Origin: a virus
Length of the DNA: 64,000 nt
IMG/VR virus record: IMGVR_UViG_3300047557_002497
Span: 1 to 64,000 of that record
Direction: 5' to 3' (one strand)
Below the pieces are notes generated by a model, which was given only the letters and a program-made list of their open reading frames with translations, made no database searches and was not told where the DNA came from. A program made the translations under genes and the position numbers. This document shows, piece by piece, positions 1 through 38,435 of the stretch; the first letter of the stretch is position 1; each line of letters opens with the position of its first letter.

Positions 1-177
1 TCCCTGTCCCCATACGCTGACCCCTTGGTATGCGGAGAAGGCCACTAGGAGGGCGAGCAGGGCGACCCCTAGGGGCAGGCAGGCAGAGGCGAGTGAGGCC
101 CGTTGCGCCTTGCGCTGCGAGCGTGCAAAGTGAGTGTTGGTGCGTTGAGCTGAGCGGGTGCGAGTGGAGTGTGCCAT
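1..177 (-). CDS. Partial membrane protein, cut by the left window edge
   Basis: An open frame starts at an ATG at 175-177 and runs off the left end with no stop. The visible 59 residues are a basic, Ser/Thr/Arg-rich N-terminus (about residues 1-30) followed by a hydrophobic stretch (about 33-52: ACLPLGVALLALLVAF), so a single-pass inner-membrane protein is likely. The ribosome binding site (AAGGGACC, 7-8 bases upstream) is nearly the same as that of the next gene upstream. The segment is GC-rich with codon use like 284-706 and unlike the rest of the window. No family was recognised. Confidence 0.6.
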   Translation of the reverse strand, partial: MAHSTRTRSAQRTNTHFARSQRKAQRASLASACLPLGVALLALLVAFSAYQGVSVWGQG

Positions 178-195: not shown

Positions 196-205
196 TAAGT
201 GGTGA

Positions 206-233
206 CCCCTACCTAGCATGGACTAGGTAGGGG
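206..233. terminator. Perfect 11-bp hairpin between two GC-rich genes
   Basis: CCCCTACCTAG (206-216), loop CATGGA, CTAGGTAGGGG (223-233). A second hairpin, GGGGCAGG/CCTGCCCC, lies at 255-275. Both are just past the stop of the 284-706 gene on the minus strand. Neither has a clear U-run, so the role (termination or RNA stabilisation) is inferred from position. Confidence 0.5.
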
Positions 234-283
234 TGCAACCCCTTTTGTTGAGTTGGGGCAGGTGTTTCCTGCCCCCTGTAGTG

Positions 284-706
284 CTAGGCTTGCGCCTTGG
301 CGGCCTTGGCAAGTGCCTGCGCAGCGGAGGCCGGAGCCTGCAACCAGCCTTGTCCCTTGAACCAGTTTGCATGGGCGTTGGCAGTGCCGTTGGGCTTGGC
401 CACAGTGCCCCAGCCTGTGCTCGGCTGTTTGCAGGTGGTGCCTTGGGCATTGCCTGCCAAGGCGCTTGCGTATTGGGCCAGCGTAAACCCGTTGGGGTTT
501 GCCTTGGCCAGAGCCTGCGCAACCTGCCAGCAGTAGGCGCGGACGCTTGCGCCGGTTTGGGCTTTGACCGGCCAGCCAGTATTGTGGGTCTGGTGGTAGC
601 TGACCGGCAGGAAAACAGGGGCGAGCATGGGGGCAGCAGCAACCGGAGCAGGGGCAGCAGCCTTGGGCGTGGAAACGGGCTTGGAAACAGTGTTGGTGGT
701 AGCCAT
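284..706 (-). CDS. Unknown protein, Ala/Pro/Lys-rich, GC-rich gene
   Basis: A 140-residue product. The start is the ATG at 704-706 with AAAGGA about 8 bases upstream; the open frame extends further but without a better signal. The N-terminal 30 residues are a low-complexity Ala/Pro/Val/Lys stretch. The centre (about 40-115) holds Trp, Tyr and Cys residues in a compact domain (TGWPVKAQTGASVRAYCWQV, then HANWFKGQGWL), and the tail is Ala/Lys-rich (AAQALAKAAKAQA). The Ala/Lys ends could bind nucleic acid, but no family was recognised. Codon choice (GCC, CTG/TTG, ACC) is quite unlike the AT-leaning genes from 1.4 kb onward. Confidence 0.65.
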   Translation of the reverse strand: MATTNTVSKPVSTPKAAAPAPVAAAPMLAPVFLPVSYHQTHNTGWPVKAQTGASVRAYCWQVAQALAKANPNGFTLAQYASALAGNAQGTTCKQPSTGWGTVAKPNGTANAHANWFKGQGWLQAPASAAQALAKAAKAQA

Positions 707-1160
707 TTGGTAGGTCCTTTGTGGTAGTTGGGTCAGCACCATTGCTGCCCCATGTGTAATGGTATGGCAGACCAATGTGGCAACATTAAGGCAAACTATG
801 GCATTATTTGGGCATTGTTGTGGTTTGTTTGGGGCAGAGCAGACCGTCCCAGGGCAATGGACTTTGCATGACAAAGGACCTCGATGAGGATGAAGAGACC
901 GATGAAGATGAAGATAAAGATAGTGATGAAGAGACTCGGTCAGATAGAGTCGCTCACTCATTCATCATCAATATCAAACTCTTCTTCATCGTCCAACCAT
1001 CGATAACGAAGAAGATATAGAAGACGAGATACCTCGAAGAAGAAGATGATAAAGATGAAGATACTCGGTCAATTCGGAGAAGCACTGATTCGCCGATGAT
1101 CAGTCGGCCAGTGCTTCTCCTCGCTCGGTAGGGTCGGTGCGTCTTCCAGTGGGAGGGAGA
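707..1160. other. Gene-poor stretch with purine-rich tracts and structured repeats
   Basis: No convincing gene. From 880 to 1065 the plus strand is a GAA/GAT-rich purine tract that would encode only a D/E-rich low-complexity peptide. ACTCGGTCA occurs at 934-942 and 1063-1071, and again at 1859-1867 over the stop of the TerS-like gene. Each copy sits between purine-rich and pyrimidine-rich DNA that can fold back imperfectly. The right end holds the strong hairpin at 1076-1120. Confidence 0.5.
1076..1120. terminator. Strong compound hairpin downstream of the 63-aa gene
   Basis: GGAGAAGCACTG (1076-1087) pairs perfectly with CAGTGCTTCTCC (1109-1120). Inside it GCCGA (1092-1096) pairs with TCGGC (1104-1108), leaving a 7-base loop and a 4-base bulge: 17 bp in all. 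It lies about 40 bases past the minus-strand stop at 1161. There is no U-run, so it is either a factor-dependent or weak terminator or a structured RNA element. Confidence 0.55.
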
Positions 1161-6096: not shown

Positions 6097-6098
6097 TT

Positions 6099-6156
6099 TC
6101 ATATCTCCAGGTTGGTAGCCATGCTTAAACATACCTCACGACTGGTCTTCAAACAA
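6099..6156 (-). promoter_or_regulatory. Promoter plus 30-base leader repeated at 9693
   Basis: Minus strand: -35 TTGTTT (6151-6156), 17-base spacer, -10 TATGTT (6128-6133). The leader at 6099-6128 is identical over 30 bases to 9693-9722. It starts inside the -10 box, runs through GCATGGCTACCAACC and ends just past the CTGGAG ribosome binding site. Confidence 0.65.
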
Positions 6157-6258
6157 GCATCAATATGTCAGCCACCAAATTTGCCACCTGCCACCTAGGC
6201 TAAGGCCATTCTTTGCCTTCTCCGATGCGTCAGAGGGGCCTCAGAGCCCTAAACGACT

Positions 6259-6284
6259 TTGCCGGGTAGGGTGGCACCCGGCAA
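6259..6284. terminator. GC-rich hairpin with loop shared by the GC-rich elements
   Basis: TTGCCGGGT (6259-6267), loop AGGGTGGC, ACCCGGCAA (6276-6284): a 9-bp perfect stem about 20 bases past the minus-strand stop at 6305. The core GGTAGGGTGGCACC recurs in the GC-rich elements at 24321-24334 and 38384-38397, each time closing a hairpin with the same 8-base loop. Confidence 0.6.
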
Positions 6285-6304
6285 GCCTTAAGGGCATCTA
6301 GCAG

Positions 6305-9479: not shown

Positions 9480-9691
9480 TTCAGCAACTCAGACAGATCA
9501 GTGTGAGCGATAGCAAGCTGTCCACGCTTGTAGGTCTTGCCAGTGATCTCGCCAGCTTTGCGAAGCATGTTCTTTGGAGTGTAGAGTTTGTTGGCTTGGA
9601 TCCCACACTCAACATACATCTTGATCGCTGTCTTAAGAACAATCGCAGTATAGCGATCGATTTGTTCTTTTCCCTCGATCACAACACTCAT
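9476..9691 (-). CDS. Small hypothetical protein (71 aa)
   Basis: Begins MSVVIEGKEQIDRYTAIVLK and contains PKNMLRKAGEITGKTYKRGQ. This looks like a compact helical protein with a basic surface. It is first in its operon, behind the promoter and 30-base leader at 9693-9750 that it shares with the 147-aa gene at 5653. Confidence 0.65.
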   Translation of the reverse strand: MSVVIEGKEQIDRYTAIVLKTAIKMYVECGIQANKLYTPKNMLRKAGEITGKTYKRGQLAIAHTDLSELLK

Positions 9692-9692
9692 T

Positions 9693-9750
9693 TCATATCT
9701 CCAGGTTGGTAGCCATGCTTAAGCATAGCCTATTGAGCCTGGGATGACAA
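9693..9750 (-). promoter_or_regulatory. Promoter plus repeated 30-base leader, copy 2
   Basis: Minus strand: -35 TTGTCA (9745-9750), 17-base spacer, -10 TATGCT (9722-9727). The leader 9693-9722 is identical to 6099-6128 over 30 bases, including CTGGAG. ATGCTTAAGCAT here is a perfect 12-base palindrome over the -10 box. Confidence 0.65.
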
Positions 9751-13279: not shown

Positions 13280-13355
13280 TGGTAGACCCGAAGGGATTCG
13301 AACCCCTGACCTAAGCATTATGAGTGCCCCGCTCTAACCGCTGAGCTACGAGTCC
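13280..13355 (-). tRNA. tRNA with CAT anticodon (Met or Ile2)
   Basis: 76 nt with the encoded 3' CCA. Acceptor stem GGACTCG/CGGGTCT (one G-U at the end), D-arm GCTC...GAGC, anticodon loop CTCATAA (anticodon complement at 13320-13322), T-arm AGGGG TTCGAAT CCCTT. CAT could be elongator Met, or Ile for AUA after lysidine modification. The variable-loop region resembles tRNA-Ile2, but the choice is not secure. Confidence 0.92.
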
Positions 13356-13359
13356 ATTA

Positions 13360-13435
13360 TGGCGCGCTCGGAGGGACTCGAACCCCCGGCCAACTGCTTA
13401 GAAGGCAGTTGCTCTATCCACTGAGCTACGAGCGC
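13360..13435 (-). tRNA. tRNA-Arg (TCT)
   Basis: 76 nt with encoded CCA. Perfect acceptor stem GCGCTCG/CGAGCGC, D-arm GCTC...GAGC, anticodon loop CTTCTAA (TCT, reads AGA/AGG), T-arm with GGTTCGAGTCC. AGA is favoured by AT-leaning phages in GC-rich hosts, so the gene likely supplements a rare host tRNA. Confidence 0.95.
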
Positions 13436-16522: not shown

Positions 16523-16551
16523 ACTTTAGCTTGTGACGTGTTTGGTGACTA
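16523..16551 (-). promoter_or_regulatory. Promoter upstream of the ligase genes
   Basis: Minus strand: -35 TAGTCA (16546-16551), 17-base spacer, -10 TAAAGT (16523-16528). It lies about 23 bases before the 86-aa gene. Confidence 0.45.
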
Positions 16552-16570: not shown

Positions 16571-16650
16571 TTCTAACGACACGCCTGGACATTGCCAGCG
16601 TGCCTATATACATGGGGCTTGCACCAACACGTCCAAAACAGTCGTTAGAA
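16571..16650. repeat. Short relative of the GC-rich element, bounded by a 10-bp inverted repeat
   Basis: TTCTAACGAC (16571-16580) and GTCGTTAGAA (16641-16650) pair perfectly, enclosing 60 bases; an inner GGAC/GTCC adds 4 bp. The right part contains CCAACACGTCCAAAACAGTC, identical (on this strand) to the end of the GC-rich elements at 24226 and 38289. The left part (GTCCAGGCGTG on the minus strand) resembles their other end weakly. It may also serve as the terminator of the primase-helicase gene, whose stop lies at 16645. Confidence 0.6.
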
Positions 16651-22039: not shown

Positions 22040-24105
22040 ACCTTGCTTATCTCTCCCCATGAAGGACCAACTTCTGTATCAACCTTAAACGGAACCCAGA
22101 TGGTTCCAGAGAACTTCTCGACTGCACAGTCTTTCATTATACGACCAACTTCTTTAGCTTCTTCAACAGAACTAAAAGAGCCATCCATTTCATCATGAAC
22201 CTGAAGTTGAATGAAGTAACCTGCATCATCAAGCTCACACAAGGCCAATTTAGTCTGGTCTGCGCTGCTGCCTTGTATAACACGGTTGAGAGCTTTGTGA
22301 GTATAGTCATAAGTTCCATCTTCACGACGTTCAAAATTCAAACGTCTATTAAAGATTGTTCTGACATATCCAACGCTATTTGCTCTATCAGATGCAGCTT
22401 TTGATAGCTTACGAACATACGGAACTTCTCTATCAAACTTATCAAGAATTTCCTGACCATGCTCACCAGCAACTTCTCTGATGTAACCTTTCTGCATTTC
22501 CATACGATAAGCCATAGCAGAAGCTTGATCTTCAAAATATTCTGTGTGTTTCAAATCACCGTAACCGACAGTATACATCCATCTAGTCGGTTGCTTGATA
22601 TCTCTACACAGTTTGGGTCCACCTTCACCATAGCAAAGACCAAGGAAAATGTTCTTATCGTAACCTCTTTCAACTTTGAATTCTTTGGGAGATTCTTTCA
22701 TCGCCCAATCAGTCCATTTATCACCTCTGATGAGACGAACCATCATCTCATGGTTATCAGTATCAGGATTTTCTTGATAACGCCTTGCAGCTTCTCTAGC
22801 ACGAGGTAGATCCATGACGGCCGCGAAGTGAGTTGTCCATCTTGGCTCTTGTTGGGAATAGTCGTTGCATCCCCAGATTTGTCCATGTTCCGGGATAAAG
22901 ATCTTTCTCCATTCACCAGCAATCTCAGGGTCTCTATCTGGAGAGGGCTGCTGCTGCATATTAGGATCTGTTGCAGATAGTCGTCCGTATCTAACGCCCT
23001 TCTGATCACCTTCCTCGTCCTCTTGTGCTATTTGACGGAACGTGCAATGTAGCCTTCCGTTGACCGAATGCTTTCTTATACTTTGGGCGAATGTAGTTCT
23101 AAGTTTATTGACTTTACGAGCTCTGAGAATTGCTTCACAAACAGGATCATCATTTCCACCCAAAAGGAAGCGATCAATCTGTGGAGCTCCAGTGCTAGTC
23201 TTTTTAAGACGAACTCCTATTGCTTCAAGTGCTGGAGCAAGAGCATCAGGTTTCCAAACTTCACCGAAGCCGATCTTAACTCCAGTAGTTCTCTTGATAA
23301 AATCAAGAGCTTTCATCTCTTCTGTTTCAGCCCAATTTTCAATTTGTTGAAGTTTATCAAAATTGATAAGAACACCACGTCTTCTCATACGAACAAGCGC
23401 AGGAAGGGTTCGTGTCTCTAGGTCCCATATTTCTCTAAGACCTTCTTTATCAATTTTCTCTTCTTGCTTTTTCAATATTTCTAACGGAGAGACAGAGTCT
23501 TGCTCTGCATATTGTCCAACAAATCTAGCTGGTAATCTCCACAATCCTTTCTTAAAATCAAGACCGAAAGACTTTGCAGCTTCTATTAGAAGAATTTCAT
23601 GTTTCGCTTCTATACCATATCTCTCACCAATTGCTTTTAGAGAATAGTTCATATGAAGTTCATATATTAATGGATCAGCAATTTGGATATCTCTGAATTT
23701 AGCGTTTTTATTCCATTCAAAATTATCAGAGTAGCCATAATCCATGTCATAAGCCAAATTGGCTCCAACATATTCGCCTTCAAAATGTTTAATCTGTTCA
23801 CTAAGATATCTCTTGACTTGAACTTCATCAAGATTATCACCACCTTCATGCCCATAGGGCAGATAGAATGCCGGACCTCCTTCTATTGAAAAAGACCAGC
23901 CAACAGTTTTCCCGTCTCTGAGCGAACCTGATCCCATTTTATTACCAAGAGAAGGATCTTTGGTTTCACAATCAATCGCTATTCTTTTAGCATCTTTCCA
24001 GGAAGGAAGATCAGAAAGTGATGGTGGCCTCCAGGTAGATTCTGGAGTAAAGAAACTCATTTGCAGAGAGCCACCTAGATTAGGATTTCCCTTCTTTCTA
24101 ATCAT
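22036..24105 (-). CDS. polA: DNA polymerase I (family A) with 3'-5' exonuclease
   Basis: 689 residues from ATG 24105, chosen for its ATGA-type overlap with the upstream gene. Exonuclease motifs: AIDCETKDPS (Exo I, D45/E47), GANLAYDMDYGY (Exo II), QYAEQDSVSPL (Exo III). Polymerase motifs: GCNDYSQQEPRWTTHFAA (motif A), KNIFLGLCYGEGGPKL (O-helix, motif B with Tyr-Gly), VHDEMDGSF (motif C). There is no 5'-nuclease domain. The motif A change from DYSQIE to DYSQQE is worth noting, though it keeps the catalytic Asp. This is the replicative polymerase of the phage. Confidence 0.95.
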   Translation of the reverse strand: MIRKKGNPNLGGSLQMSFFTPESTWRPPSLSDLPSWKDAKRIAIDCETKDPSLGNKMGSGSLRDGKTVGWSFSIEGGPAFYLPYGHEGGDNLDEVQVKRYLSEQIKHFEGEYVGANLAYDMDYGYSDNFEWNKNAKFRDIQIADPLIYELHMNYSLKAIGERYGIEAKHEILLIEAAKSFGLDFKKGLWRLPARFVGQYAEQDSVSPLEILKKQEEKIDKEGLREIWDLETRTLPALVRMRRRGVLINFDKLQQIENWAETEEMKALDFIKRTTGVKIGFGEVWKPDALAPALEAIGVRLKKTSTGAPQIDRFLLGGNDDPVCEAILRARKVNKLRTTFAQSIRKHSVNGRLHCTFRQIAQEDEEGDQKGVRYGRLSATDPNMQQQPSPDRDPEIAGEWRKIFIPEHGQIWGCNDYSQQEPRWTTHFAAVMDLPRAREAARRYQENPDTDNHEMMVRLIRGDKWTDWAMKESPKEFKVERGYDKNIFLGLCYGEGGPKLCRDIKQPTRWMYTVGYGDLKHTEYFEDQASAMAYRMEMQKGYIREVAGEHGQEILDKFDREVPYVRKLSKAASDRANSVGYVRTIFNRRLNFERREDGTYDYTHKALNRVIQGSSADQTKLALCELDDAGYFIQLQVHDEMDGSFSSVEEAKEVGRIMKDCAVEKFSGTIWVPFKVDTEVGPSWGEISKV

Positions 24106-24757
24106 TCTGATATCCAAATGGCGATGGATGATCTGAGCTCATCTTGCATTCATCAGTAGCAAATTCCATCATTTTCCTTCTTGGAAGACCACAGCCACAT
24201 GGACAAGGACCGAATGGTATTTCAGCGACTGTTTTGGACGTGTTGGTTGGTTGCCCCTGCCCTATGGTGCCTTGCGCCCCGCTAGGCGCTGCCCCTGCGC
24301 TGCCCTGTTTGCCTGTAGCCGGTAGGGTGGCACCGGGCAAGGGGTTTACCCCATCCAGTGCCCCGCTTACAGTCATGATGAGTGTATTCAAAACTGCCTT
24401 CGCTTCATAGACTTCATTGAGAGAAACAAATCTGCACATAGAATACATGAACTCTCGTTCTAGTCTTCTTTCAGCAGTTCCCAAGCCATTTGAATTTACG
24501 AAATTCAAAGTCAATTGAAAGTCAAAATTGTTTCTTGATCTGCATTCATTTGGGATAGTTATGTGACTAGTTGCAATGATCTTATCGATGTAGGTCATCG
24601 CTTTCTTTAGATCTTCAATCCCATTCTTTTTCCACCAACGAGAAACATACTTCGTCGCACACCCTGCAAGATATCCCATACCGAGATCAGTTACCCAATC
24701 CCAATGCTGATATACAGACTGATAGTGATCTCCGCCTTCTTGCTTCACGTATTCCAT
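24098..24757 (-). CDS. DUF3310 protein carrying an in-frame GC-rich element
   Basis: 219 residues. The first 65 are a DUF3310 domain (GGDHYQSVYQHWDWVTDLGM, KYVSRWWKKNG, DLKKAMTYIDKI), a short helical domain common next to phage DNA polymerases. A helical linker follows. Residues about 129-177 are a Pro/Gly/Ala-rich low-complexity stretch (GATLPATGKQGS...PTNTSKTV) encoded by the GC-rich element at 24226-24373. The frame then resumes with a possible metal site (GPCPCGCGLPRRK). The gene stays open through the insert. Confidence 0.8.
   Translation of the reverse strand: MEYVKQEGGDHYQSVYQHWDWVTDLGMGYLAGCATKYVSRWWKKNGIEDLKKAMTYIDKIIATSHITIPNECRSRNNFDFQLTLNFVNSNGLGTAERRLEREFMYSMCRFVSLNEVYEAKAVLNTLIMTVSGALDGVNPLPGATLPATGKQGSAGAAPSGAQGTIGQGQPTNTSKTVAEIPFGPCPCGCGLPRRKMMEFATDECKMSSDHPSPFGYQND
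24226..24373. mobile_element. GC-rich MITE-like element, copy A
   Basis: About 148 bases of GC-rich DNA in an AT-leaning gene. Plus strand: CGACTGTTTTGGACGTGTTG at 24226-24245, variable middle, CCGGT-AGGGTGGC-ACCGG hairpin at 24319-24336 and CCAGTGCCCCGCTTACAGT at 24355-24373. The ends give short terminal inverted repeats (ACTGT...ACAGT). Copy B (38289-38435) has the same ends, and its hairpin core sits at the same offset (95 bases). No transposase or target duplication is visible, so mobility is inferred. Confidence 0.6.
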
Positions 24758-25317
24758 TATTCACCTTTATCAGAAAGAGTTTCCCAGCCATCGCTTTCAA
24801 CTTGAAAGAAGAAGTCAACTATCTTTGGATGATAGTGATGTTTTCTATCTCTTATGTGTTTAGAGACAGCGAGCAATTTTGTTTCCATGGATAGATTTCC
24901 AAGCATTTGTTCATCTCTGCAGTAGAGATAGAACTCAATCATGTCAAGACCACGAAACCACAAAAGATCTTCTTCACTTAGATCTGATTCAGGATCTTCT
25001 CCGAATACAAGAACTTGCAGTTCACTCTCAGTTTCTTTGAGATATGTTGCATCAATGAAACCGATATGCTTTGCTGGATGAGGAATATCACCAACAATCC
25101 TTTCAGGAACGTCATGCTGGAGAACAGCCCAGATGAGTTCTTTCGGAGCATCAGGATATAGAATTCTCAAGAGACAGAGCATATTGAAAGTGTGCCCAGA
25201 GACAGGATATTCTCTAATCCCTCTTTGAGCATGACATCTCAGAACATTGCCACCTTCTCTCGCAAATTTAACTTTCTGAACATTCAAATCTCTTTCAGAT
25301 CTGAAACCATAAGTCAT
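24757..25317 (-). CDS. HD-domain nucleotidase (YfbR-like)
   Basis: 186 residues from ATG 25317 (AAGGAG six bases upstream, ATGA overlap with the thymidylate synthase homologue). SGHTFNMLCLLRILYP supplies the first His, AVLQHDVPERIVGDIPHPAK the HD pair and the E-x-x-x-GD-x-P-P-AK motif of 5'-deoxynucleotidases, and RGLDMIEFYLYC the last Asp. It would dephosphorylate deoxynucleoside monophosphates, shaping the dNMP pool for the neighbouring enzymes. Confidence 0.83.
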   Translation of the reverse strand: MTYGFRSERDLNVQKVKFAREGGNVLRCHAQRGIREYPVSGHTFNMLCLLRILYPDAPKELIWAVLQHDVPERIVGDIPHPAKHIGFIDATYLKETESELQVLVFGEDPESDLSEEDLLWFRGLDMIEFYLYCRDEQMLGNLSMETKLLAVSKHIRDRKHHYHPKIVDFFFQVESDGWETLSDKGE

Positions 25318-26324
25318 TTCATTCTCCTTTGAAGCCATTCAACACAAGCAAGTCTCCAATCAGTTGCAGCGATCTTTTCAGCAAACACGATTGCCTTCTC
25401 AAGATGATACGGATCATCTTTATCTTTCCATGCCATCCAAGAACTGTAGACTGGAGATGCAACTTTCTTGAAGAACGGATCTTTAAACCCAATGACAGGA
25501 CCCTCAGACATGAACATCGAGAGATCAGTAAACCACTCTTCTATTGGGCCATTGACGATTGGGAAGGGTTCTACTGCACCTGTCGCATACGGATCCATAC
25601 CAGTAGAATGCATGGAGAGTTCTTGGACTTTCTCCAAAGTATTGAGGTAAGCATGGAAATTCGTGCTGATCTGATAATAGGAGCCTACTTGAACTCCGAT
25701 CCAAGATGCCATCACTTCTTGCAAGAAAGAGAAATGAACAGCATTCGCTCCATACGCTCCCCAGATCATGTCATTGCTTCTGTTGAACACAGTCATGTCA
25801 AGATATCCATATGGATTTATCCTGAAAGTAGCAATGAGATTGCAAGGGAAGTCTTTGCCATCTCTACCAAGATCACAAGAAGCATCCCACATTTGAAGAA
25901 CAGTTCTTCTATCATCAGGATTTTGTTTTAGAAGTTTTGCAATAGTTGCGAGTTGATCAATTACAAAAGATCCGCCTTCATCATATGCTGGAAAAGCATT
26001 TCTCCAACGATATCCATATGCACCATGGAATGTAACTCCATTATCACTATAATTCGCGATATTAGAAGAAAAACGAGAAATCCATTCAACATCATTTCTT
26101 CCAGAGATCATCCACAAAGATTCCATAAGATGGAAAAAAGGATTTGCATCTCTTTCAGGAAAGAAGATCACTCTTTCTGTAGGATCTTTATATTTCGTTG
26201 TTACTGGATCAGGGAAAACCCTAACTGGTCCATTTCTTGAATCTCTCAGAACTCCATCAGATTCAAGCTTTCTAAGCCCAATGATAAGAGCATCATTGAC
26301 GTTGTTAGCTTCTATGATGATCAT
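25314..26324 (-). CDS. Thymidylate synthase-superfamily enzyme (possible pyrimidine hydroxymethyltransferase)
   Basis: 336 residues. Conserved blocks: FFHLMESLWMISGRNDVEWI, YGYRWRNAF, RRTVLQMWD, the active-site PC (Cys161), NRSNDMIWGAYGANAVHFS (Arg182, Ser183, Asp185, and Asn194 at the site that recognises uracil in dUMP) and TNFHAYLN. The usual Pro-Cys-His reads Pro-Cys-Asn. Asn194 favours dUMP over dCMP. Transfer of a methyl or hydroxymethyl group to dUMP cannot be told apart from sequence. The neighbouring glycosyltransferase and base-modification homologue make hydroxymethylation plausible. Confidence 0.8.
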   Translation of the reverse strand: MIIIEANNVNDALIIGLRKLESDGVLRDSRNGPVRVFPDPVTTKYKDPTERVIFFPERDANPFFHLMESLWMISGRNDVEWISRFSSNIANYSDNGVTFHGAYGYRWRNAFPAYDEGGSFVIDQLATIAKLLKQNPDDRRTVLQMWDASCDLGRDGKDFPCNLIATFRINPYGYLDMTVFNRSNDMIWGAYGANAVHFSFLQEVMASWIGVQVGSYYQISTNFHAYLNTLEKVQELSMHSTGMDPYATGAVEPFPIVNGPIEEWFTDLSMFMSEGPVIGFKDPFFKKVASPVYSSWMAWKDKDDPYHLEKAIVFAEKIAATDWRLACVEWLQRRMK

Positions 26325-27661: not shown

Positions 27662-27862
27662 TTATTTCTTTTTCTTTACAAAAAGCCTATAGATAGTAAC
27701 AAATGGAAGAGCAATTGGAAATGTAAACATTCCTATAATGATTGTTTTTCTATCATATTGTTTTGCTTTTTCTGGATCATTCTTAATGACAAATTCATAA
27801 GCATAGACAAGAATCATGTCTACGATAAGAAAATACAGGCAGAAATAGAACCACCAACTCAT
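27662..27862 (-). CDS. Small two-span membrane protein (66 aa)
   Basis: Residues 1-22 (MSWWFYFCLYFLIVDMILVY) and about 42-60 (IGMFTFPIALPFVTIY) are hydrophobic, with a charged loop between and a basic KKKK end. Coupled by ATGA to the gene upstream. Role unknown. Confidence 0.65.
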   Translation of the reverse strand: MSWWFYFCLYFLIVDMILVYAYEFVIKNDPEKAKQYDRKTIIIGMFTFPIALPFVTIYRLFVKKKK

Positions 27863-28776
27863 TTTGGGAAATATCTAGAACGAGGTTTTCCTTGTCCTAA
27901 ACGAACACGCTCATACTTATCAAACTCACACAAACTGAATTGAATATCAGTTGGTGAGAGATAAGGAAATCCATCAGGAAGATAGTTGCTTTGTTCTTCA
28001 AACAATGTCATAAGAATTGACATCGCTTTACTGTTTGACATCTTCTTGGAGATATCAGCTAGTTCATCAAGAATTCGTGCAGCACCTCGTAGAGCTCCCG
28101 GTCCGATAGGCGTCCAGTCCCACCAGTCTTTTGGGAATGTAAATCTTCCATCAGGAGTTTCATCAGTAACTGCCCAAAAGGGACAATAAGTCGTGTCAAG
28201 AAGAATCTCCTTGGTCATGAATCCAGTTCCACCGAATCCATTGATCTTCATCATCTCTTCAGCTGTCAGTCTCCAGGATTGAGTTTTTGAAGCAATATCA
28301 ACCAGACGACCAGCTTTTTCATGCAGAGCTCTAAGGAAGTAGTCTACTACAACCTCTTCTTTGGGCTCTGAGATTCCTTGGTTGGTAATCACGTATGCTC
28401 CAGTGAACACACGTAGATTTTCAGCAAATCTTTCTTTAGCTACAGATTTCACAAGTTCAAAATCATAAGCATCAAAAGTCTGCCAACCAACAGCTTCTGC
28501 GAATTCCCATGTTCCAAAATATCTGAAGGTTGCACAATTCATGAGAATTGTTTTCTTATCATCAGATTGAATCTTGCTGTAAAAAGATTCACGAAGTTTT
28601 GAAGACGTCTTGTCATGATGACGCCTAACATTGGTGAATTTATACATTGAGAGAATAGGATCAAAAGTCCACTTATTCTCGTCAAACCCAATGGAAGTAT
28701 CCGCCTCCTTCCGAAGGCGGATATTCTCGCGCTCAATGATATAGTTAAAGAACGCGCTTGCTCTGGAAAGAAACAT
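27859..28776 (-). CDS. Putative DNA base-hypermodification protein (HMUDK/aGPT-PPlase helical domain-like)
   Basis: 305 residues, all-alpha. YKFTNVRRHHDKTSSKLRES followed by ILMNCATFRYFGTWEFAEAV resembles the N...R..D..T...R / N...R.F....T/E pattern of the helical domain of 5-hydroxymethyl-dU kinases and alpha-glutamyl/putrescinyl-thymine pyrophosphorylases. KINGFGGTGFMTKEILLDT is a helix-hairpin-helix-like DNA contact, and the C-terminus is basic. Members act on modified thymine or hydroxymethyluracil in phage DNA. No P-loop kinase is seen in the window. The family call is from memory of motifs and should be tested. Confidence 0.6.
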   Translation of the reverse strand: MFLSRASAFFNYIIERENIRLRKEADTSIGFDENKWTFDPILSMYKFTNVRRHHDKTSSKLRESFYSKIQSDDKKTILMNCATFRYFGTWEFAEAVGWQTFDAYDFELVKSVAKERFAENLRVFTGAYVITNQGISEPKEEVVVDYFLRALHEKAGRLVDIASKTQSWRLTAEEMMKINGFGGTGFMTKEILLDTTYCPFWAVTDETPDGRFTFPKDWWDWTPIGPGALRGAARILDELADISKKMSNSKAMSILMTLFEEQSNYLPDGFPYLSPTDIQFSLCEFDKYERVRLGQGKPRSRYFPK

Positions 28777-36175: not shown

Positions 36176-36203
36176 ATTATAAGCACTTTGGCAATACTGG
36201 CAA
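36176..36203 (-). promoter_or_regulatory. Early operon promoter with operator-like -35
   Basis: Minus strand: -10 TATAAT (36176-36181, perfect), 16-base spacer, -35 TTGCCA (36198-36203). The -35 lies inside one 9-bp repeat (36198-36206) and a second repeat (36189-36197) fills part of the spacer. A protein bound to these repeats would cover the promoter. Confidence 0.65.
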
Positions 36204-36453
36204 TACTTAGACTAACAATCTTGATCTATGTATTGTCAGAGATATTACCTCTTTTTACCTTTATTTACAACAGCTTAAAGAGCTTTGACAATACTGGCAA
36301 TACTGACAATACTAAAAACGCTGCTGCAACAAAACTTCCAAATGCTGGCAACCCTTGGGCATGTATTGCCAGTATTGCCAGTGATGTCAGTGATACTTTT
36401 CATGAACAAAAACAATAGGTTAAGATTTGCTCACTGACATCACTTGACATCAC
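36189..36453. promoter_or_regulatory. Control region 2: 9-bp repeats between lysis and early genes
   Basis: TGGCAATAC at 36189-36197 and 36198-36206; GTATTGTCA 36230-36238; tandem TGACAATAC/TGGCAATAC/TGACAATAC 36286-36312; tandem GTATTGCCA, GTATTGCCA, GTGATGTCA 36363-36389; TGACATCAC at 36435-36443 and 36445-36453. The layout (two direct-repeat triplets in opposite orientation) mirrors control region 1 at 2.7-3.0 kb. No gene is seen in the 308 bases between the helicase start and the endolysin stop. Confidence 0.78.
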
Positions 36454-37507: not shown

Positions 37508-37735
37508 TTACCTAGCTCCCATTGCTTTGACAATTATTGTCAGCTCTGTGAGGACGCTTGTCGTCTGTTTCTCACGCTCAAAAGAATTGTGCATTTGCTC
37601 GAAGAGCTTGCCAGTCAGATCATCGATCTTTTTGTCTTTTTGCTGATTCTGCCATATTGAGTAGATATTCCAGACACCAAGAACTCCATAACCAGTTAGA
37701 ACAGTGACGATCGAATCAAATATGTTACCTTCCAT
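37508..37735 (-). CDS. Single-span protein, possible second holin or antiholin
   Basis: 75 residues: hydrophobic N-terminus (SIVTVLTGYGVLGVWNIYSI), then a polar coiled coil (QQKDKKIDDLTGKLFEQMHN). One-span-plus-coiled-coil proteins of this shape are common in lysis cassettes. Confidence 0.55.
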   Translation of the reverse strand: MEGNIFDSIVTVLTGYGVLGVWNIYSIWQNQQKDKKIDDLTGKLFEQMHNSFEREKQTTSVLTELTIIVKAMGAR

Positions 37736-38078
37736 TTCCCATTACTCCTCCATCCCTTATCTTATAAAACTCAACAAGAGATTCATGACGTTCTCCACAC
37801 GCCAGTAGATTAGAACGATCAGAAATCCAAAGCTTCTCCACTTCAGATTGGCTCAATTCTCTATTAGGAAGAATAACTGGTCTTGAACATTTCACAACCA
37901 AAGATGCCGGTGGATCTACTAATACAGGAGGTTCAATCGATCCTATTGATTCTGCGCACGCTGTCAACAGAAATAGCTGGCCTAGAAGCATTAGGGTCCA
38001 AGTCGATTTCTGACATGAGATTTTTGATTTCTTCATTTCTTTGCGCAAGAATCTCAGCGAGTTCTGCTTCCCTTTCAT
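37725..38078 (-). CDS. Rz1: Rz1-type outer-membrane spanin lipoprotein
   Basis: 117 residues from ATG 38078; a shorter form from the in-frame ATG 38036 (MKKSKISCQKSTWTLMLLGQ) fits a lipoprotein signal better. Lipobox LTAC, then a Pro-rich stretch (GSIEPPVLVDPPAS). The gene overlaps the 3' part of Rz in another frame by 104-146 bases, the classic overlapping spanin arrangement. The C-terminal extension past the Pro-rich region is longer than in lambda. Confidence 0.78.
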   Translation of the reverse strand: MKGKQNSLRFLRKEMKKSKISCQKSTWTLMLLGQLFLLTACAESIGSIEPPVLVDPPASLVVKCSRPVILPNRELSQSEVEKLWISDRSNLLACGERHESLVEFYKIRDGGVMGNGR

Positions 38079-38274
38079 GAGCTAATCTTAGAGCCTCATT
38101 ATTAGCTCTAGTTATGCGATCTTTTTCAACTTGCATGGCACGCTCATATTTTTGAGTTGTCACTTCAACGCCATCGTTGAATGCATCGTGCCTGATGTAA
38201 AGACCGGCTCCCACGAGCAGGGCAATGCCCAAGAAATAAGGCATAAACCTGTTAAAGACAATACTTGAAAGCAT
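37933..38274 (-). CDS. Rz: Rz-type inner-membrane spanin
   Basis: 113 residues. N-terminal span (FMPYFLGIALLVGAGLYIRH, residues about 10-28), then a periplasmic coiled coil (EVTTQKYERAMQVEKDRITR, HEREAELAEILAQRNEEI). It pairs with Rz1 to fuse the two host membranes. Its ribosome binding site (AGGAAAC) lies at the edge of GC-rich element B. Confidence 0.8.
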   Translation of the reverse strand: MLSSIVFNRFMPYFLGIALLVGAGLYIRHDAFNDGVEVTTQKYERAMQVEKDRITRANNEALRLAHEREAELAEILAQRNEEIKNLMSEIDLDPNASRPAISVDSVRRINRID

Positions 38275-38288
38275 GGATTAGTTTCCTA

Positions 38289-38435
38289 CGACTGTTTTGG
38301 ACGTGTTGGTAGCGGGGCCTTGGGTGTTGGTGCAGGTAGCGCGGCCACAGGCGCGGCTAGCGTGGCAGGTTTGGCACCTGCCCGGTAGGGTGGCACCGGC
38401 CAGCAGCAAAAGCCAGCCAGCGGCCCGCTTATAGT
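38289..38435. mobile_element. GC-rich MITE-like element, copy B
   Basis: 147 bases between the LamG-type gene and the spanins. CGACTGTTTTGGACGTGTTG at 38289-38308, variable middle, hairpin CCGGT-AGGGTGGC-ACCGG at 38382-38399, and CCAGCGGCCCGCTTATAGT at 38417-38435. Ends and hairpin-core offset (95) match copy A at 24226-24373. A 60-codon frame (38278-38460) runs through it and, as in copy A, reads TNTSKTV and GATLP, but it overlaps the upstream gene and looks like a by-product. Confidence 0.6.

Follow-up and report, generated by a model that had tools for sequence, protein, structure and literature searches.

Two short GC-rich segments in a phage genome of otherwise modest GC content, one of them lying in frame inside a gene and the other between genes, raise the question of whether they are copies of a mobile element or something of a different nature. 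The original prediction described them as a family of elements resembling miniature inverted-repeat transposable elements (MITE-like), of 147-148 bases, with common ends, short inverted termini, a hairpin with an identical loop and diverged middles, one copy adding about 49 codons to a DUF3310 protein without breaking its frame, and no such element was familiar in phages. The sequence examined, called the window here, is the whole stretch of 64,000 nucleotides taken from the 65.4-kb viral record IMGVR_UViG_3300047557_002497, and all coordinates refer to it unless stated otherwise. The features on which the following paragraphs rely are:

24226..24373 (+), copy A, a GC-rich island free of GA/TC, in frame as the C-terminal linker of the DUF3310 reading frame, which runs on the - strand
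38289..38435 (+), copy B, an island between a laminin-G-like gene and the i-spanin gene, with a 116-bp interior that has no GA/TC
16623..16644 (-), copy C, an exact 22-bp left end directly after the primase stop codon, in opposite orientation relative to genes
16535..16547 (-), the inverted counterpart CACCAAACACGTC that closes region C
6258..6285 (+), D, the hairpin TTTGCCGGGT-AGGGTGGC-ACCCGGCAAG, with the same 8-nt loop as A and B and a different 10-bp stem
24319..24336 (+), the hairpin of copy A
38382..38399 (+), the hairpin of copy B
205..877 (strand not assigned), a long GA/TC-poor island, consisting of a gene for a 139-aa protein without D or E (start about 703, - strand) plus its noncoding upstream side, with counterparts near terminase in the other clade genomes
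36281..36387 (strand not assigned), a weak GA/TC-poor stretch in the repeat-rich spacer upstream of the helicase gene
24098..24757 (-), the DUF3310 gene that carries A
25314..26324 (-), a thymidylate-synthase-like gene (candidate dUMP hydroxymethylase)
27859..28776 (-), a PF18723 (5-hmdU DNA kinase, helical domain) gene, candidate thymine hypermodification enzyme

The observation itself was confirmed. A is 148 bp long with a GC content of 0.65 and B is 147 bp long with a GC content of 0.66, in a genome of 43% GC. They share exactly the 22-bp left end CGACTGTTTTGGACGTGTTGGT, exactly the 18-base hairpin CCGGTAGGGTGGCACCGG (5-bp stem, 8-nt loop AGGGTGGC) at offset 94 in both, where offset 95 had been given originally, and a right end SCCCGCTTAYAGT differing by two bases. 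Shuffling of the sequence yielded 0.00 expected copies of the left end with up to three mismatches and 0.01 of the hairpin, so none of this is chance. Two further pieces had been overlooked, namely the third exact copy of the left end on the other strand at 16644-16623 (C) and the hairpin loop with a changed but paired stem at 6258-6285 (D). The region after primase (16651-16535, - strand) holds several overlapping inverted repeats (TTCTAACGAC/GTCGTTAGAA, GACGTGTTGGTG/CACCAAACACGTC and CACGCTGG/CCAGGCGTG) which cannot all form at once. A 37-bp repeat, 97% identical, occurs at 6097-6133 and 9691-9727, 3.6 kb apart. Directly next to copy B overlapping i-spanin and lipoprotein-like o-spanin genes are found (37725-38274, - strand). 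An assembly error had been named in advance as one way in which the observation could fail, and it is excluded, as independent contigs carry homologous segments at the same places.

As the segments could not be traced by their own sequence, relatives had to be found through proteins. Exact scans of 2.9 million viral contigs with the left end and the hairpin gave only chance matches, plasmid and phage nucleotide searches returned nothing relevant, and Rfam reported only two tRNAs; adjacent tRNA-Met (CAT) and tRNA-Arg (TCT) genes lie in a GC-rich patch at 13280-13435 (- strand). The polymerase and terminase of the phage resemble those of the YuA/M6 group (Mesyanzhinovviridae) and of phage Simon at 47-58%. 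Closer relatives were found only as metagenomic contigs (labelled with L or G and a number below), L110, L111 and G001 by polymerase at 68-73% and some 30 more by the PF18723 protein. The ends of the record repeat 127 bp (window positions 1-127 and the last 127 bases of the record). The same length is reported for the assembly of phage Lydia (PMC11946847), so that this is probably the assembler's overlap of a circularly permuted genome rather than a biological repeat.

Comparison with these relatives showed that A is not a recent insertion. Of 30 DUF3310 genes, including that of the present phage, about 26 have in frame and at the same place, after the conserved domain and before DNA polymerase, a linker rich in Ala, Gly, Pro and Thr followed by a conserved PFGY tail. 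In most of them the linker DNA is GC-rich and nearly lacks GA/TC over 80-160 bp. The conserved left end is the complement of codons for SSASTE/TNTSKT. The linkers diverge so fast that mostly words are shared, in either orientation, yet far more than shuffles allow (cross-genome 11-mers 11 against 0.8, 12-mers 8 against 0.17). Presence of the same sequence at the same place in relatives had been put forward from the outset as an outcome that would speak against a mobile element, and for A this is largely what was found.

The original interpretation was only partly supported. It was right that the two segments are related, belong to a larger GC-rich family, and can sit in frame in a gene or between genes. 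A MITE-like insertion, however, was not supported. The inverted termini are only 5 bp long in A and B (ACTGT/ACAGT) and do not extend, whereas 10 bp or more is typical for MITEs, and the search for target duplications suggested with the prediction revealed no repeat above 3 bp with boundary shifts of up to 4. The helper transposase proposed along with it was not seen among the window proteins scanned. On the side of the host, which is not known, the left end is absent from about 85,000 species genomes save for one hit, a 20-mer in Methanimicrococcus without an island around it, and this leaves the existence of a partner transposase undecided. Empty sites, which had likewise been proposed as a criterion, do occur: site B is occupied in the present phage and in G007, G008, G009, G010 and G012 but empty in G001, and the gap between primase and ligase is occupied in L110, G008 and G011. 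As the copies are strongly diverged and site A is fixed, this variation does not settle whether similar copies move to new sites. A conserved TTTC before the left end looked like part of the element, but in B and L110 it is the complement of a ribosome-binding site and in C it is primase coding sequence.

B and other islands proved to be relatives of A at other sites. Islands lie upstream of i-spanin in the present phage, G007/L157, G009/L167, G010, G012/L168 and G008/L181. In L174/G011 a GA/TC-poor linker containing GATLP is in frame in an endolysin-like gene, while the DUF3310 island is noncoding because the gene stops before it. Alignment scores between A and B within one genome are 47-50 in the present phage, L157 and L181, against a median of 26 for A with A between genomes. 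The B of L157 is nevertheless closer to the A of other phages than to its own, so copying is not simply within one genome. Further recurring sites are about 1.2 kb into the tape-measure gene (G001, G008, G009 and G012) or about 4 kb before it (G011, G013 and G014), and a long island of up to about 800 bp near terminase. In several genomes the latter encodes a protein with no or almost no D or E, with 0 of 139 residues in the present phage (GC-rich gene at 284-703, - strand) and 0 of 141 in G008. The homologs in G008, G012 and G015 have 0-2 such residues, and the function of this protein is unknown. Genome positions of some islands differ between subgroups. The weak stretch at 36281..36387 falls into one of two spacers (2763-2897 and 36178-36399, the second upstream of the helicase gene) with 9-bp tandem repeats (TTTGACAATACTGACAATACTG...) and inverted counterparts (GTATTGCCAGTATTGCCAG), which are iteron-like and in which CpG is nearly absent.

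The property which defines these islands, and which could not be seen from the first inspection, is the near-absence of the dinucleotide GA and its complement TC in their interior. Under one procedure applied to all ten dinucleotide classes, ten near-complete genomes of the clade yielded 48 GA/TC islands (35 if not scaled by genome frequency), 120-180 bp each plus a long one near terminase, and at most 4 of any other class (15 for the globally rare TA and 9 for AC when unscaled). Five control phages gave none of this class, nor did the parts of Sonora, phiW-14, ViI and Epa5 that were read. The p-values for islands are per window and uncorrected, the comparison across dinucleotide classes serving as the control. 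Pooled GA/TC is 0.14 (short islands) and 0.11 (long islands) of expectation, against an enrichment of 1.30 genome-wide and 1.22 in GC-matched windows outside islands. The excess of CA/TG, AA and TA in the islands is the arithmetical result of removing GA/TC and was not counted as evidence. A single binding motif common to all islands was sought and not found.

To examine whether the rule acts on DNA or on protein, the GA/TC content was predicted from the encoded peptides and the codon usage of each phage, tilted to the GC content of the island. Coding islands should hold 219 (sd 11) GA/TC and hold 47. As these islands had been chosen for low GA/TC, the unbiased test is its repetition on the DUF3310 linkers of 24 phages chosen by position alone, where 119 were seen and 286 (sd 12) expected, while residues 1-100 of the same genes show the reverse, 1097 against 983 (sd 16). 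GA and TC are about equally rare on the sense strand (70 and 80 in 10.6 kb). Noncoding islands obey the same rule, as seen for B of the present phage, the primase-ligase sites of L110 and G008, and the DUF3310 site of G011. Tape-measure and capsid-region islands could partly reflect Ala-rich protein sequence, but according to the codon test not wholly.

A clue to a possible mechanism came from the gene content. The clade encodes a thymidylate-synthase-like enzyme and a PF18723 protein (E 1.6e-30 in the present phage), a kit of the kind found in thymine-hypermodifying phages, although hydroxymethylase activity was not tested and the precise enzymatic role within the PF18723 family is not settled, its members being annotated also as thymine pyrophosphorylases. 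In M6, ViI and phiW-14 the modified T appears to lie in TG or TC (PMC6449724), 5hmdU DNA kinase acts at TG and TC (PMC7653180), and phosphorylating 5hmU in a template turns transcription by bacterial RNA polymerase down (PMC6457204). Just before the PF18723 gene, AC/GT-poor stretches of 130-200 bp occur in five relatives (L155, L157, L174, L179 and L184), and the present phage has its lowest AC/GT window at about 28826, within the gene next to it.

What the analysis demonstrates is a clade-wide set of GC-rich islands to which A and B belong, in which GA/TC is purged on both strands at recurring genome positions (the DUF3310 tail before DNA polymerase, upstream of i-spanin, between primase and ligase, near terminase, and inside or near tape-measure genes in some genomes). 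The constraint acts on DNA, not on protein, and where an island falls in a gene it is translated as a low-complexity stretch; islands at different sites share words in both orientations and some are diverged copies of one another. Everything beyond this, apart from the gene content and the cited papers, is inference and is put forward tentatively. In this view these phages replace thymine by hydroxymethyluracil and hypermodify part of it in a TC context, and the islands have lost TC so that they stay free of the bulky modification and give an unmodified window to a machine that must bind, melt or cut the DNA (RNA polymerase, replisome or terminase; which of them is not known). New islands would arise by copying or recombination of existing ones, because a long GA/TC-free stretch is hard to evolve from scratch. 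If the enzyme of this clade prefers TC, this would explain dinucleotide specificity, strand symmetry, indifference to coding or noncoding context, the lack of one common motif, the recurring positions beside replication, lysis and packaging genes, and the confinement to one clade. Against it stands that M6, ViI and phiW-14, whose thymine hypermodification is published, and YuA have no GA/TC or TG/CA islands in the parts examined. A more general rule of TG-free control regions in TG-modifying phages was examined in YuA and CN2 and is weak, with a TG depletion of 0.65-0.75 in two control regions. TG is not avoided in the islands, so the enzyme would have to be TC-specific. This specificity is inferred from the islands themselves and is untested, identity to the Pseudomonas and Bordetella phage homologs is only about 25-28%, and no modification has been measured in any member of this clade, nor were virion DNA data part of this study.

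Other explanations were considered and appear less likely. A selfish short repeat family of the MITE, Rickettsia palindromic element or GC-cluster type, which copies itself between genes and in-frame sites and whose lack of GA/TC is simply inherited composition, would account for the shared ends and hairpin at several sites, the variable occupancy of sites B and C, and the in-frame copies in DUF3310 and in the endolysin-like gene of L174/G011. It is unlikely, however, given the missing inverted termini and target duplications, the lack of a transposase among the window proteins scanned, the fixed A position, and the fact that unrelated island types (the long gene, tape measure) share the rule without being alignable copies, while interiors diverge fully and GA/TC stays absent. 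Bacterial MITEs (PMC10969869) are likewise short, dispersed and without a transposase of their own. Rickettsia palindromic elements, as described in the same review, are also about 150 bp long, occur in several copies and can be in frame inside unrelated genes, which holds here for DUF3310 and the endolysin-like gene. In the islands no long palindrome was seen, positions are largely fixed across the clade, and the definition rests on an absent dinucleotide, not on a conserved peptide: only short resemblances (GATLP, TNTSKTV/SASTEV) were found, and endolysin and tape-measure islands encode other peptides. GC clusters of yeast mitochondrial DNA are short GC-rich hairpin-bearing segments in a less GC-rich genome, one kind being in frame in a gene; no GA/TC rule is known for them, and an insertion signature was not found here. 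The resemblance to them was not tested. The islands are consequently not assigned to a known family.

Avoidance of GA/TC for another reason acting on double-stranded DNA, such as a different base modification in GA context, a host nuclease or a CRISPR motif, would fit the strand symmetry and dinucleotide specificity. It too is unlikely, as the avoidance is confined to islands while the rest of the genome is enriched in GA/TC, so that it is not a general escape, and no deazaguanine or adenine modification genes were met in an incomplete scan of the proteins. Improbable is an effect at the protein level, with disordered Ala/Gly/Pro/Thr linkers without acidic residues coded by GC-rich codons and noncoding copies as decayed duplicates of the DUF3310 tail. 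The recurrent tail motifs GRAGG...SSASTE...PFGY, the A/G/P-rich composition and the frames of B, which still resemble TNTSKTV/SASTEV, speak for it, but it is strongly disfavoured by the synonymous codon choice, and noncoding islands, the equal effect on both strands and the undepleted GC-matched windows contradict it as well. Equally improbable are RNA or regulatory hairpins (terminator, attenuator or processing site) placed before particular genes. The conserved hairpin loop with changing stems in A, B and D and the position of several islands just upstream of gene starts would be compatible with these, as would GGACGYGYTGG, which occurs as an inverted pair at a constant 37-bp spacing inside the DUF3310 linker (GRAGG...SSAST codons) of three phages (G007:26828-26875, G009:17824-17871 and G015:44657-44704), a possible conserved hairpin. 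But copy C is in the opposite orientation, words occur in both orientations, a single-strand signal would not deplete GA and TC equally, and some islands lie deep inside tape-measure genes.

Phages of the M6/YuA (Mesyanzhinovviridae), ViI and phiW-14 types share the thymidylate-synthase-like gene and the PF18723-type protein with the present phage, and M6/YuA also related polymerase, primase and terminase, but none of those examined has dinucleotide-purged islands. No description of such islands was found in the literature searched, which lacked most subscription papers. Even without the proposed function, a strand-symmetric loss of one dinucleotide, strong enough to dictate synonymous codons and linker sequence at recurring positions in a whole phage clade, needs an explanation. 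In the most far-reaching reading, which is possible but more doubtful than not, these phages keep a set of modification-free windows by erasing the target dinucleotide of their own DNA-modifying enzyme from islands of about 150 bp, overriding protein sequence where needed, and the genome would thus encode a map of where its own chemical coat must not be. Phages with hypermodified DNA must still let polymerases, primases and terminases read it. If islands purged of the target dinucleotide are unmodified windows, they would mark, from sequence alone, where those machines act, and would let the sequence context of an uncharacterised modifying enzyme be read from the genome.
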